This document shows positions 1,252 through 24,740 of a DNA stretch of 64,000 nt, in pieces (the first letter of the stretch is position 1; each line of letters begins with the position of its first letter). Both the position numbers and the translations under genes were made by a program. Origin of the DNA: an uncultured Stenotrophomonas sp. (GTDB taxonomy: Bacteria > Pseudomonadota > Gammaproteobacteria > Xanthomonadales > Xanthomonadaceae); contig CAJYNG010000023.1 of assembly GCA_913775725.1 (NCBI GenBank), positions 62,001 through 126,000 of the forward strand, read 5' to 3'. Below the pieces are notes generated by a model. That model saw only the letters and a list, made by a program, of their open reading frames with translations. It did no database searches and had not been told where the DNA came from.

Positions 1252-1271
1252 GAGGCAGATGGCACGCCACT

Positions 1272-1301
1272 AAAAAGAAACGCCCCGCAAAGCGGGGCGT
1301 T
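1272..1301 (-). terminator. Rho-independent terminator of the small exported protein gene
   Basis: Minus strand: perfect stem AACGCCCCGC / GCGGGGCGTT around a 3-base loop, followed by a T-rich run. It lies 45 bases after the stop of the gene at 1347-1580. Confidence 0.85.
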
Positions 1302-1346
1302 CCGGAGCGCAACCCTTGTCGCAAGGGCGCCTGGCAGGTTGCGGGA

Positions 1347-1580
1347 TCAGCGCTTCTTACGCGCTTCCTCTTCCTCTTCCTGCTGCGGGGCCGGCTGGCC
1401 CTGCGCCTTCATTTCGGCATTGGCCTGGGCCCGACGCTTGGCCTTGGCATCGGCCTCGGCCTGCGCCTTGTCGGCCTGGTCACCCTGCTGCGGGGCCGGC
1501 TGGCCGACGTTCTGCGCCACCACCAGCGGCACTGCAACGGCGGCAGCGGCCAGGATCGCAATGGTCAGCAACTTCTTCAT
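1347..1580 (-). CDS. Small exported Glu/Ala/Gln-rich protein
   Basis: A 77-residue protein that I cannot assign to a named family. Residues 1-22 form a classical signal peptide (MKKLLTIAIL, then an alanine/valine-rich core ending near VVAQ). The mature part is low in complexity, rich in Ala, Gln, Glu and Lys, and carries a run of five Glu followed by a basic C-terminus ARKKR; two PAPQQ repeats flank a probable helix. GGAGG lies 7-8 bases before the ATG. It is a single-gene unit with its own terminator and stands divergent from parE. A periplasmic structural or stress role is only a guess. Confidence 0.8.
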   Translation of the reverse strand: MKKLLTIAILAAAAVAVPLVVAQNVGQPAPQQGDQADKAQAEADAKAKRRAQANAEMKAQGQPAPQQEEEEEARKKR

Positions 1581-1752
1581 GAGGTCCTCCTCGCGGTATG
1601 GCTGGGATGTTTCGACCCAACGGGGGTCGCCGGCGTTCAGATTCCAGCGGCTGCCATTTTACCTCCTCTGCGTCGCCGAGACTGAACCGCAGGCGTGCAA
1701 AATCCCGTGCCAGACCCCACACTTGCCCGTCGCTCCAAGCTTTCGAAGACAG

Positions 1753-5980: not shown

Positions 5981-6182
5981 GGGGTTCGGCCGGGCCTGGC
6001 GGCCCGGCACCCGCCGGATCAACGGCAACGTCAAAAGCAGGGTTTCCGTGGGCAGGCGAGGCGGGGTGGGGTTGCAGGACACGCCGTAAACCCATCCCTG
6101 GGGGCTCGATGGCGCCATCCATGGCGCCAACGGTCCTGCAACCCCACCCCACCCCGCCGCTGACAGGTTCCCGCTGCTGCTG

Positions 6183-6207
6183 GTGGGTGCCGACCGTTGG
6201 TCGGCAC
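6183..6207 (+). repeat. SMAG-like monomer, diverged head
   Basis: GTGG head followed by GTGCCGACC / GGTCGGCAC around three bases. The stem differs from the neighbouring monomer by a compensated C-G for T-A pair. Confidence 0.65.
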
Positions 6208-6233
6208 GGGATCGGATCCCTGTTTCTGCTCTG

Positions 6234-6257
6234 GTAGGTGTCGACCTTGGTCGACAC
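6234..6257 (+). repeat. SMAG monomer
   Basis: GTAG head followed by the perfect hairpin GTGTCGACC / GGTCGACAC with a 2-base loop. Confidence 0.8.
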
Positions 6258-6286: not shown

Positions 6287-6317
6287 AAAAAGCCCGCCGG
6301 ATACCGGCGGGCTTTTT
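6287..6317. terminator. Bidirectional terminator between S10 peptidase and pit
   Basis: Perfect 14-bp stem AAAAAGCCCGCCGG / CCGGCGGGCTTTTT with a 3-base loop. It carries A and T tracts on both sides, so it serves the convergent genes on both strands. Confidence 0.93.
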
Positions 6318-6340
6318 CGTTTGCAACCTTGGCGTGGCGA

Positions 6341-7462
6341 TCAGGTCCAGCCGAACAGCTCGAACAGCTTCAGGATCAGGTACGCACAGCCGCCGGCTGC
6401 CGGGATGGTCAGGATCCAGGCCCAGACGATGCGTTCGATCACGCCGAACTTCAGCGAGCGCGGGTTCTTGGCGAAGCCGACGCCCATGATGGCGGTGGAG
6501 ATGCTGTGCGTGGTCGATACCGGCATGCCGAAGTGCGCGGCCAGGGTCAGGATGGTGGCCGAGCTGGTTTCCGCGGCGAAGCCGTGGATCGGGTGCAGCT
6601 TGACCATCTTGTGGCCCAGGGTCTTGATGATCTTCCAGCCGCCGGACGCGGTACCGGCCGCCATCACCACCGCACAGGTCAGCACGATCCACATCGCGAT
6701 GCCGTCACCGGCGTGCGCGTCCGGGTGCATGAAGGCCAGCCAGGACGGCAGGTCGTTCAATGCGCCGGTGGCTTCGGCACCGATCAGTGTCATGGCGATG
6801 ATGCCCATGGTCTTCTGCGCATCGTTGTGGCCGTGGGCGAAGCCCATGTAGGCCGCCGAGGCGATCTGCGCCTTGCCGAAGAAGGCATTGACGATGCGCG
6901 GGCGGGCCAGGCGGCCGATGGCACCACCGATCTTGGCCAGGCCGGCGATCAGCGCCCACAGCAGCACCATCACCACGATGCCGAGCAGGAAGCCGGCGAT
7001 CGGCGAGGTGATCATCGGCACGAACACCTTCCACAGCAGGCCCTTGTTCTGCGCCCAGCTGCCCAGGCGCTCGGACCAGATCAGGGCGTCCCAGTTGTTG
7101 TGGGCCGCGGCCAGGCCGGCGCCGCAGAGGCCACCGATCAGGGCGTGCGAGGACGAGGACGGCAGGCCCTTCCACCAGGTGATCAAATTCCAGATGATGC
7201 CGCCCAGCAGGGCGCACAGGATCACCTGCGGGGTGACGTCGACCACGTTGGTGTTGAGCAGGCCCGACGCGATGGTCAGCGCCACCGCGGTACCGGTCAG
7301 TGCACCGAGGAGATTCATGAAGGCGGCCAGCATCACCGCCCAACCGGGCGAGAGCACCTTGGTCGCCACCACGGTGGCAATGGAGTTGGCGGTGTCGTGG
7401 AAGCCGTTGATGAACTCGAAGACGAGTGCGGCCAGGATCACCACCAGGACAAGGGTCAACAT
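6341..7462 (-). CDS. pit: Low-affinity inorganic phosphate transporter, PiT family
   Basis: Inner-membrane symporter taking up phosphate as a metal-phosphate complex with protons. 373 residues with about ten hydrophobic segments. Both PiT signatures are present as the internal repeat of the family: GFHDTANSIA (20-29) and GFAHGHNDAQKTMG (207-220), together with PSSSSHALIGG (101-111) and its second-half counterpart PVSTTHSIS. It follows the DUF47 gene by 13 bases on the same strand, the standard pairing in which the DUF47 protein modulates Pit. The shared terminator is at 6287-6317. No Pho box was evident upstream of the operon. Confidence 0.96.
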   Translation of the reverse strand: MLTLVLVVILAALVFEFINGFHDTANSIATVVATKVLSPGWAVMLAAFMNLLGALTGTAVALTIASGLLNTNVVDVTPQVILCALLGGIIWNLITWWKGLPSSSSHALIGGLCGAGLAAAHNNWDALIWSERLGSWAQNKGLLWKVFVPMITSPIAGFLLGIVVMVLLWALIAGLAKIGGAIGRLARPRIVNAFFGKAQIASAAYMGFAHGHNDAQKTMGIIAMTLIGAEATGALNDLPSWLAFMHPDAHAGDGIAMWIVLTCAVVMAAGTASGGWKIIKTLGHKMVKLHPIHGFAAETSSATILTLAAHFGMPVSTTHSISTAIMGVGFAKNPRSLKFGVIERIVWAWILTIPAAGGCAYLILKLFELFGWT

Positions 7463-12992: not shown

Positions 12993-13016
12993 GTGTCGAC
13001 CAAGGTCGACACCTAC
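12993..13016 (-). repeat. SMAG monomer
   Basis: Perfect hairpin GTGTCGACC / GGTCGACAC with CTAC at its right end, that is, a GTAG head on the minus strand. It forms one end of copy B. Confidence 0.8.
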
Positions 13017-13258
13017 CAACAGCCGCGGGGAACTGTCAGAGGCGTGGTGGTGTGGGCAGGCGGGACCGTTGGCGCCATGGATGGCGCCATCGAGCCCCCA
13101 TGGGTGAGGGCGCTTTGCTTGCGAAGCACTGCTTCGCAAGCGCCCGAACGCACAGCCGCCAGCGGCTGGGCCGGGCCGCGGAGCGGGGTTCACGGCGTGT
13201 CCCGCCTGTCCACACCGCCACGCCATCCCACGGAAACCAGCTTTTGACGTTGCCGTTG
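12993..13258 (+). repeat. Dispersed long-stem element, copy B
   Basis: Plus-strand order: SMAG hairpin (12993-13016), 5' arm (13041-13065), 35-nt apical block identical to copy A (13066-13100), an extra segment of about 80 nt with its own hairpin GCTTGCGAAGC / GCTTCGCAAGC, 3' arm (13200-13224), and the shared end GCTTTTGACGTTGCCGTTG. The arms pair over all 25 positions on this strand, counting two G-U pairs. Confidence 0.8.
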
Positions 13259-24572: not shown

Positions 24573-24603
24573 ATGCACCGCCGCTGGTAGCATGGACCAC
24601 GAT

Positions 24604-24653
24604 GGGGATGGGGCTCCCCCGATAACCGCCTGAGAAGGCTGATGGCTCCTGCC
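24604..24653 (+). ncRNA. Fluoride riboswitch (crcB motif)
   Basis: Matches the conserved crcB RNA: GATGG, a CCC stretch, TAACCGCC at 24623-24630 and GGCTGATGGCTCCTGCC at 24637-24653, forming the known pseudoknotted aptamer. Two hairpins follow, GACGAAC/GTTCGTC (24656-24674) and GGCAGG/CCTGCC (24678-24694), as the probable expression platform before crcB. Confidence 0.95.
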
Positions 24654-24740
24654 AGGACGAACCCGGTGTTCGTCGACGGCAGGTCGTGCCTGCCCTCGGC
24701 GTTCGCCATTGACCCTGCGAACCCGCATTCGAGGCACGCC

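Follow-up and report, generated by a model that had tools for sequence, protein, structure and literature searches.

A dispersed, strand-specific hairpin element with two putative RsmA/CsrA sites in Stenotrophomonas and other gammaproteobacteria

Two copies of a long-stem element in one window

What kind of element underlies two long-stem sequences in the window (the whole 64,000-nucleotide stretch of DNA from an uncultured Stenotrophomonas sp. analysed here), and does it act as a DNA palindrome or as a folded single strand? A reading of this DNA from its letters (the sequence-only reading) had placed the copies at 6020 to 6257 on the minus strand (copy 1) and at 12993 to 13258 on the plus strand (copy 2), and both were present at these positions. 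In the orientation that it had used, here the element strand, each copy forms a stem of 26 bp, rather than the 25 bases proposed for each arm. Six paired differences between the copies, at positions 5, 11, 17, 18, 19, and 22 counted from the outer end, are two-sided and still paired, as it had said; at position 5, a G-U pair in one copy is U-A in the other. That every difference is compensated was slightly overstated, as a seventh pair (position 16) changes on one side only, from G-C to G-U. Each stem contains two G-U pairs, as described. The apical block common to both copies without a mismatch is 38 nt instead of 35 nt, and the common 19-nt end is exact.

Copy 1 (minus strand throughout) begins with the leader GGGAACCTGTCA at 6161 to 6172; similar leaders, of the form GGAAnCTGTCrg, precede the stem in most listed copies. 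The 5' arm of the long stem P1 (6133 to 6158; 24 Watson-Crick and 2 G-U pairs) and the 3' arm (6055 to 6080) enclose a conserved 52-nt apex (6081 to 6132) with two hairpins, P2 and P3. Their loops, CATGGATG at 6116 to 6123 and CAGGGATG at 6093 to 6100, are of the RsmA/CsrA type CANGGANG by sequence pattern. The 3' tail (CCCACGGAAACC..GCTTTTGACGTTGCCGTTG, 6020 to 6054) contains the 19-nt end common with copy 2, and a similar tail occurs at four orthologous sites that have no hairpin. One SMAG hairpin, a name taken from the sequence-only reading, had been noted 5' of each copy. This holds for copy 2 within its coordinates (12993 to 13018, plus strand), but copy 1 has two SMAG-like hairpins by sequence, one at 6232 to 6257, a 26-nt block identical to that 5' of copy 2, and one at 6182 to 6207.

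In copy 2 (plus strand), the P1 arms lie at 13041 to 13066 and 13199 to 13224, the P2 loop CATGGATG (again CANGGANG) at 13076 to 13083, and the tail at 13225 to 13258. Its apex (13067 to 13198) is 132 nt long compared to 52 nt in copy 1, a difference absent from the earlier reading. The surplus consists of about 80 nt of extra hairpins within P3 (GTGAGGGCGCTTTGCTTGCGAAGC..., 13104 to 13180), and the same expansion was found in 5 of 60 extracted copies, copy 2 included, and in one further copy, giving six readable genome copies. At the interruption of P3, copy 2 carries CCGC-GGA-GCGG (13176 to 13186), with GGA between complementary arms; a use for this mini-hairpin would be a guess, and it is absent from the minimum-energy fold of copy 2. 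Both copies fold far better than shuffled sequences, with RNA folding z-scores of -7.2 for copy 1 on the element strand (-5.9 on the opposite strand) and -7.2 for copy 2.

Genes were called with a simple finder trained on codon usage in the window; by these calls, copy 1 sits between convergent genes and copy 2 between two minus-strand genes, antisense to both. A terminator-like hairpin (GCCCGCCGGTATCCGGCGGGC followed by a T run in the minus-strand reading) lies at about 6290 to 6320, between the gene at 6341 to 7462 and copy 1. Elsewhere in the window, Rfam models matched the sRNA sX6 (1260 to 1599, minus strand) and a fluoride riboswitch (24595 to 24658, plus strand).

Copy number, layout, and gene surroundings

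The sequence-only reading had described two copies. A DNA search returned 72 matching pieces in the genome, and a covariance model (R1), built from 55 plain copies after the 5 expanded ones among the 60 extracted were excluded, gave at least 142 matches at an E value of ≤1e-3, a lower bound obtained by scoring the best 150 of 4710 candidates. On the element strand, the general order is leader, P1, head, P1', and tail. The median P1 length is 25 bp in this genome and 27 bp elsewhere, and the head is 52 nt long in 104 of the 126 copies measured in the genome. It consists of the P2 hairpin, the junction CGAGC, the P3 hairpin with a bulge UUYAC, and GCGU. The tail often contains GTTGCC-like repeats and another hairpin.

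The genome matches fall into 94 clusters, 46 single copies and 48 pairs. By model strand, every one of the 48 pairs is divergent, the left copy lying on the minus strand and the right copy on the plus strand, with gaps of 93 to 238 nt and one of 847 nt. Reading the letters confirmed this order in 46 of the 48, the other two being C5, with its sequence unread, and C21:167909, in which the left member is truncated and reads sense by eye. One single match (C18:32199) has P3 halves on both strands, leaving its strand undecided. Neighbouring copies also occur in other genomes (152 matches at 117 loci), where 13 of 22 pairs within 300 nt are divergent likewise, 8 point in the same direction, and 1 is opposite. 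Local arrays were seen as well, with four same-direction copies 62 to 63 nt apart in Saccharophagus (L136) and six copies of mixed direction in Neiella (L197).

The spacers of paired copies (e.g., L008 and L026) contain a recurrent near-perfect palindrome, GGGGTCAGATCCGTTTTCC..GGAAAACGGATCTGACCCC, beside the elements. Another recurrent insertion, with GTGTGCGCAGGACAGCGCACAC or nearly so, was found in the P2 region of L316, C20:241104, C13:315394, and C18:32199. A promoter common to the pair spacers was considered and set aside on a 10-mer count, in which the commonest 10-mers of 46 spacers resemble pieces of SMAG-like and other palindromes. Pairs often, but not always, join two P2 types (raw counts by GTTG-type, n = 48: A+B, 12; B+C, 11; A+C, 6; C+C, 4; A+A, 2; B+B, 1; others, 12).

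Flanking genes, called as for the window, allowed 82 of the 94 clusters to be classed, with 28 between convergent, 44 between co-directional, and 10 between divergent genes; the remainder comprised one cluster with a gene between its members and 11 at contig edges or without sequence. Single copies flanked by co-directional genes number 21 and are split almost evenly, with 11 sense and 10 antisense. A role as a sense 3'-UTR element of the neighbouring gene is therefore unsupported. Copy 1 lies, as judged by eye, beyond the terminator-like hairpin of the gene to which it would be sense, and this also counts against such a role.

Covariation of the stem

Many further copies without covariation had been named as the finding that would speak against a structured element. 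This was tested, and the reverse was found, as covariation is massive. In an alignment of the 55 genome copies (MAFFT), 96.8% of the cells in stem pairs are paired, compared to 37 to 47% when the pairing is slid, and 32 of 42 pairs show two-sided changes. None of 500 shuffles was as good on any of five measures, and the covariation score was 0.44 against 0.14 for shuffled and <0.08 for slid pairings. A class set was drawn from other gammaproteobacteria, one copy per genome (23 of the 33 nonduplicate copies of set A2, all found with R1). Here, two-sided changes occur at each of the 26 P1 pairs, and 97.7% of cells are paired (slid, 35 to 45%), with a covariation score of 0.94 against 0.20 shuffled and <0.15 slid. 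For further pair types, one of the five measures, 9 of 500 shuffles did as well as the real alignment.

Since R1 rewards stems, a stem-blind set picked by the P3 motif alone was added, comprising 117 distinct flanked matches among the matches listed, some of them from Stenotrophomonas. Plain Watson-Crick extension found the long stem in 83 of these 117 listed matches but in only 5 of 2320 mispaired controls, in which an upstream flank was scored against the downstream flank of a different match. The remaining 34 had stem scores of 2 to 11; at the low end of this range a stem is absent, and at the high end it is shorter or interrupted.

Strand bias of mismatches

A plain DNA palindrome should hold about equal numbers of G-U and A-C mismatches on a given strand, and an excess of G-U indicates selection for single-stranded folding of one strand. 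Under a counting rule that treats the two alike, this genome has 46 G-U, 13 A-C, and 36 other mismatches (P = 2e-5; 3166 pairs in 126 of the 135 copies with sequence). Other genomes have 127 G-U, 17 A-C, and 81 other (P = 5e-22; 3626 pairs in 137 of 158 rows, including a few antisense duplicates). Omitting five antisense rows leaves 126, 16, and 80 (132 rows), and restricting the set to one row per locus leaves 99, 10, and 55 (101 rows). The P3-picked set, chosen blind to the stem, has 86 G-U against 20 A-C among the matches listed (P = 6e-11). Because copies within a genome are related, these P values assume more independence than exists, and more weight falls on the class-wide sets.

The preference of the sequence-only reading for a strand-specific structure over a plain palindrome, based on four wobbles, is thus extended by ratios of 46:13, 127:17, and 86:20, and one strand is selected in folded, single-stranded form. 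Grouped by neighbouring genes, the G-U to A-C counts are 9:3 for sense, 12:4 for antisense, 9:1 for divergent, 13:3 for convergent, and 3:2 for unknown surroundings. The similar ratios in sense and antisense copies, which rest on small numbers and are individually not significant, argue that the excess is no by-product of local transcription. We infer that the folded form is RNA, although the same wobbles would arise if one specific strand folded as a single-stranded DNA intermediate.

The two apical loops and csrA

Both apical loops read C-A-N-G-G-A-N-G with N free, and both match CANGGANG in 118 of 135 readable genome copies (the 142 matches minus seven unread). The 17 copies lacking one or both patterns comprise, on reading, six with the P3 expansion of copy 2, three with another insertion, six with changed loop or closing letters, and two that are truncated. 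The P3-picked set left P2 free; among the matches listed, the 117 recognisable P2 hairpins (from 123 matches) include 104 with GGA in the loop and 85 with exactly CANGGANG. The P2 stem uses several Watson-Crick pair types, and its closing C-G is mostly kept (76 of 83 at the modal offset; 118 distinct sequences).

Position by position, the P2 loop was read in 119 rows (set A3: the R1 matches of 96 of the 120 pattern loci listed, five Stenotrophomonas-labelled loci and the last nineteen being left out, a selection that leans towards the model). Its GGA is conserved at 98 to 100% (116/116, 114/116, and 115/116), the preceding A at 93% (107/115), and the closing C and G in 108/117 and 107/116, with N free (U, 48; G, 44; A, 14) and adjacent stem bases varying. 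The P3 loop was read in the 33 A2 rows, which were found with the model and not drawn by pattern, and A, G, G, and A are each present in 33/33. Junction and bulge are near-invariant in the same rows (junction A 33/33, G 33/33, and C 31/33; bulge U 32/33, U 32/33, A 33/33, and C 32/32), a degree of conservation in the head beyond what RsmA/CsrA binding by itself would require.

The fuller RsmA/CsrA consensus includes a C-G closure, and the preferred spacing between two sites is about 18 nt. In copy 1, 20 nt separate the two GGAs. RsmA/CsrA is described as recognising short hairpins that expose ANGGA, two per dimer, and multisite RNAs as titrating it (PMC7366521). In their letters, both loops look like this recognition pattern and are candidate docking sites. 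The free N in each is the most telling point for RsmA/CsrA as the partner. A study of RsmU of Xanthomonas campestris pv. campestris describes RsmA binding that persisted after all four predicted GGA motifs had been changed (PMC7694677), a result that advises caution against judging by GGA alone.

This genome has one csrA match, and it has no match to CsrB (RF00018) or PrrB_RsmZ (RF00166) at an E value of ≤0.001, the two models covered by that search. Xanthomonas is described as being without CsrB/CsrC homologues (PMC7286519). A csrA match was found in 64 of 69 element-bearing genomes, looked up by eye, and in 249 of 300 other genomes of the class (P = 0.04). This co-occurrence is weak as support because csrA is nearly universal. 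The five carriers without a csrA match are G048 (completeness, 75%), G109 (88%), G140 (67%), G235 (98%), and G381 (85%), and the G235 copy (L082) keeps both loops despite this.

Spread and mobility

R1 matches were present in 31 of 41 genomes of the genus, the present genome included; the other 10 had no match, and the element is therefore dispensable. Within the Xanthomonadaceae, the single further genus sampled gave one weak match, and the single further family of the order sampled gave none. Across the class, at least 69 of 369 sampled gammaproteobacterial genomes, in at least 61 of 271 genera, had a match when the best nine candidates per genome were scored. Carriers of the apex pattern among the matches listed include Idiomarina, Rheinheimera, Marinobacter, Methylomonas, Shewanella, Halopseudomonas, Pectobacterium, and Yersinia similis. 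In Escherichia coli, an element like the Yersinia repeat YPAL (see below) occurs in 5 of 5426 genomes, with 4 of the 5 places on plasmids; given this rarity, E. coli CsrA data are no help. YPAL-like matches were also seen on 26 plasmid records (Pantoea, Klebsiella, Escherichia, Citrobacter, and Shigella), 14 of them over most of the query, and 13 of the 26 records are predicted to be conjugative. Two viral contigs matched the apex pattern, one (L250) without the P2 GGA and one (L251) with a YPAL-type copy, as judged by eye.

At the site orthologous to copy 1, both gene flanks were found within the mismatch limit in 18 of 30 regions, which were compared by eye. The hairpin is present in 12 (L300 to L310 and L316) and absent in 4 (L311, L312, L313, and L315), which keep the SMAG-like hairpin and the tail and, in three cases, the start of the leader. 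Two (L325 and L326) show no trace of the element, and no clean empty site was found at this locus among the orthologous regions. In ten of the 12 hairpin-bearing orthologues, which were aligned, the head is nearly constant and the inner stems change, with compensation (e.g., in L303, L304, L306, L307, and L308), among the variants GTTGC/GCAAC, TATGC/GCATA, CTTGC/GCAAG, ATATGC/GCATAT, and ATAGGC/GCCTAT. The exceptions are an unpaired 3' arm in L302, an A-C mismatch in L309, and the loss of the P3 GGA in L305. The 5' arm letters of L302 are of one type and its 3' arm letters of another, which suggests recombination between copies. By eye, the second hairpin of L310 is a different one, in which GGA again lies between complementary bases, and P2 of L316 carries an insertion.

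In Methylotuvimicrobium buryatense (L110 to L114), the head lies inside a repeated 165-bp unit, read by eye at five sites. The unit is bounded by inverted ends CAGCAATTCCC and flanked by 9-bp target duplications, one of which contains a mismatch. These hallmarks of a MITE were seen in that species and not in the Stenotrophomonas genome, where the ends are undefined. The suggestion of the sequence-only reading that the element is a composite mobile or regulatory unit gains indirect support, as regards mobility, from the copy number, the 9-bp duplications, and the orthologous sites with and without the hairpin. Together these strongly suggest that the element is mobile.

Preferred explanation and alternatives

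We favour, at a probability of about one half, a mobile, MITE-like element whose working form is a folded RNA that presents two putative RsmA/CsrA sites. The RNA of the element strand would form a rod of about 25 to 27 bp (P1) topped by the 52-nt head, and the P2 and P3 loops would serve as RsmA/CsrA sites (C-ANGGAN-G), with a spacing in copy 1 that should fit the two faces of one dimer. The copies could jointly act as a distributed decoy with up to about 280 sites in the genome; a second possibility is a local effect on the RNA that carries a copy. Divergent pairing would mean that a gap transcribed in either direction makes one sense copy. To the observed structure, covariation, strand-specific bias, loop conservation, and high copy number, this reading adds transcription of the element strand, RsmA/CsrA binding, and the distributed decoy role, which we infer. 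The main objections to RsmA/CsrA as the whole story are that copies lack a preferred sense orientation and that the junction is over-conserved.

The strongest alternative is a single-stranded DNA transposition signal, which we consider rather unlikely. Here a strand-specific enzyme would read the folded strand, as HUH-type enzymes read REP and IS200/IS605 hairpins, and the GGA loops would serve this recognition instead of RsmA/CsrA. The signs of mobility (copy number, 9-bp duplications, and orthologous sites) fit this. A G-U excess independent of the direction of neighbouring genes is expected if the moving element is what is selected, in the A2 rows the loops are no better conserved than the junction and bulge, and the divergent pairs (48/48 by model strand, 46 of them read; elsewhere, 13 of 22 against 1 opposite) look like the ends of a unit. 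However, a free N within ANGGA in both loops suits RsmA/CsrA and not a DNA enzyme that reads sequence, and the Methylotuvimicrobium unit has inverted ends and duplications of its own, with the hairpin inside rather than at the ends (by eye).

A hairpin for mRNA stability or attenuation, of the ERIC, YPAL, or NEMIS kind, is an unlikely explanation. It would be transcribed with upstream genes, its stem would block or attract nucleases, and the loops would be incidental. YPAL, which shares this apex, is described as co-expressed with upstream genes (PMC2229807), and few copies occupy divergent gaps (10 of 82 classed sites, with 28 convergent, as raw counts). Nevertheless, a stability stem would not need two fixed CANGGANG loops or a head of such constant length (52 nt in 104 of 126 copies), and the single copies show no preference for sense over antisense (11 and 10). 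A plain DNA palindrome held perfect by template switching or gene conversion between its arms is very improbable and is largely refuted by the wobble bias. In its favour are the near-perfect stems and the apparent exchange of whole arms (L302, with a 3' arm of another type). However, correction acting on DNA has no means of preferring G-U to A-C on one strand; strand-biased mutation could do so, but is countered by the similar bias in sense and antisense copies, in small numbers.

Extended to the class, the preferred reading of a folded RNA with two RsmA/CsrA sites leads to a tentative proposal, which we consider possible but less likely than not. The elements may be transposable CsrA/RsmA sponges with a two-site decoy head and dozens to hundreds of sites per genome, tuning or parasitising the host regulator and possibly replacing CsrB/RsmYZ-type antagonists in Stenotrophomonas. 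If this is true, the repeat described in the cited papers only from Yersinia and relatives is one twig of an element found in at least 61 of 271 sampled genera, and repetitive DNA is a direct input to the Csr/Rsm network. It would then be a candidate counter to RsmA where CsrB/RsmZ-type RNAs were not found, and the copy number of a mobile element would be a variable that sets global regulation. Even if RsmA/CsrA is not involved, the strand-specific bias of this repeated hairpin head points to some other partner that reads it as a single strand.

Comparison with known repeats and RNAs

The earlier statement that the element belongs to no named RNA family is right for Rfam, which gave no match at the gathering score at either copy's place in the window. 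Permissive thresholds gave matches far below the cutoffs at both places, mostly to miRNA and other long-hairpin models, and these were rejected. It does not stand for the apex, which is that of a named Yersinia repeat, YPAL/RU-2. In open-access papers, no literature joining YPAL and CsrA was found, nothing on the topic of CsrA with mobile repeats was found by title and abstract, and the element's sequence strings led to no related paper among the matches listed, as judged by title.

A functional comparison would be with the sponge RNAs CsrB/CsrC, RsmX/Y/Z, and RsmV/W. These are RNA genes and are not known as dispersed repeats, whereas the element occurs as dispersed copies, each presenting two sites on a long rod. 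The likeness lies in the several hairpins per RNA that expose ANGGA, as described in PMC7366521. RsmU of the related genus Xanthomonas is likewise an RsmA-binding RNA with GGA motifs, but by its description it is processed from the 3'-UTR of the comEA mRNA and reported only in Xanthomonas (PMC7694677).

Among the repeats, SMAG-like hairpins occur in the same genome, often adjoining the element and in its spacers, and are palindromic and intergenic. SMAG or GTAG REP sequences are described as 20- to 40-bp repeats tagged with GTAG (PMC3733652), and the head and 26-bp stem of the element are not of this kind. ERIC and the NEMIS/Correia MITEs are intergenic mobile elements of about 100 to 200 bp whose RNA forms long stem-loops; compared by description, they differ in that the account in PMC2229807 describes no ANGGA head.

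YPAL/RU-2 shares the apex and two GGA hairpins. The RU-2 sequence printed in Table 1b of PMC2759123 contains the head of the Yersinia similis copy (L165), apart from small differences in P2. The apex GAGCCTACATGGATGTATTTACGGCGTC with its preceding GGA hairpin occurs with variants, in this genome, for example, as GAGCTTACATGGACGTACTTGCAGCGTC and GAGCCCCCATGGATGGGTTTACGGCGTG. YPAL is likewise described as a high-copy, intergenic, mobile repeat with a long stem. PMC2229807 reports target duplications of 3 to 26 bp and targets near dyad symmetry and, as a review, says that YPAL is expressed with upstream genes and perhaps affects transcript stability. It is described in Yersinia and Erwinia, including Erwinia carotovora, and one table gives three matches in E. 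coli. The YPAL unit of about 168 bp differs from the Stenotrophomonas copies, whose P1, leader, and tail do not resemble it on reading, and which occur singly or in divergent pairs, accompanied by SMAG-like hairpins and ending in a tail rich in GTTGCC. Judged by the letters of its head, the element is a relative of YPAL and not a YPAL copy, and the two would belong to a wider family around the named repeat.
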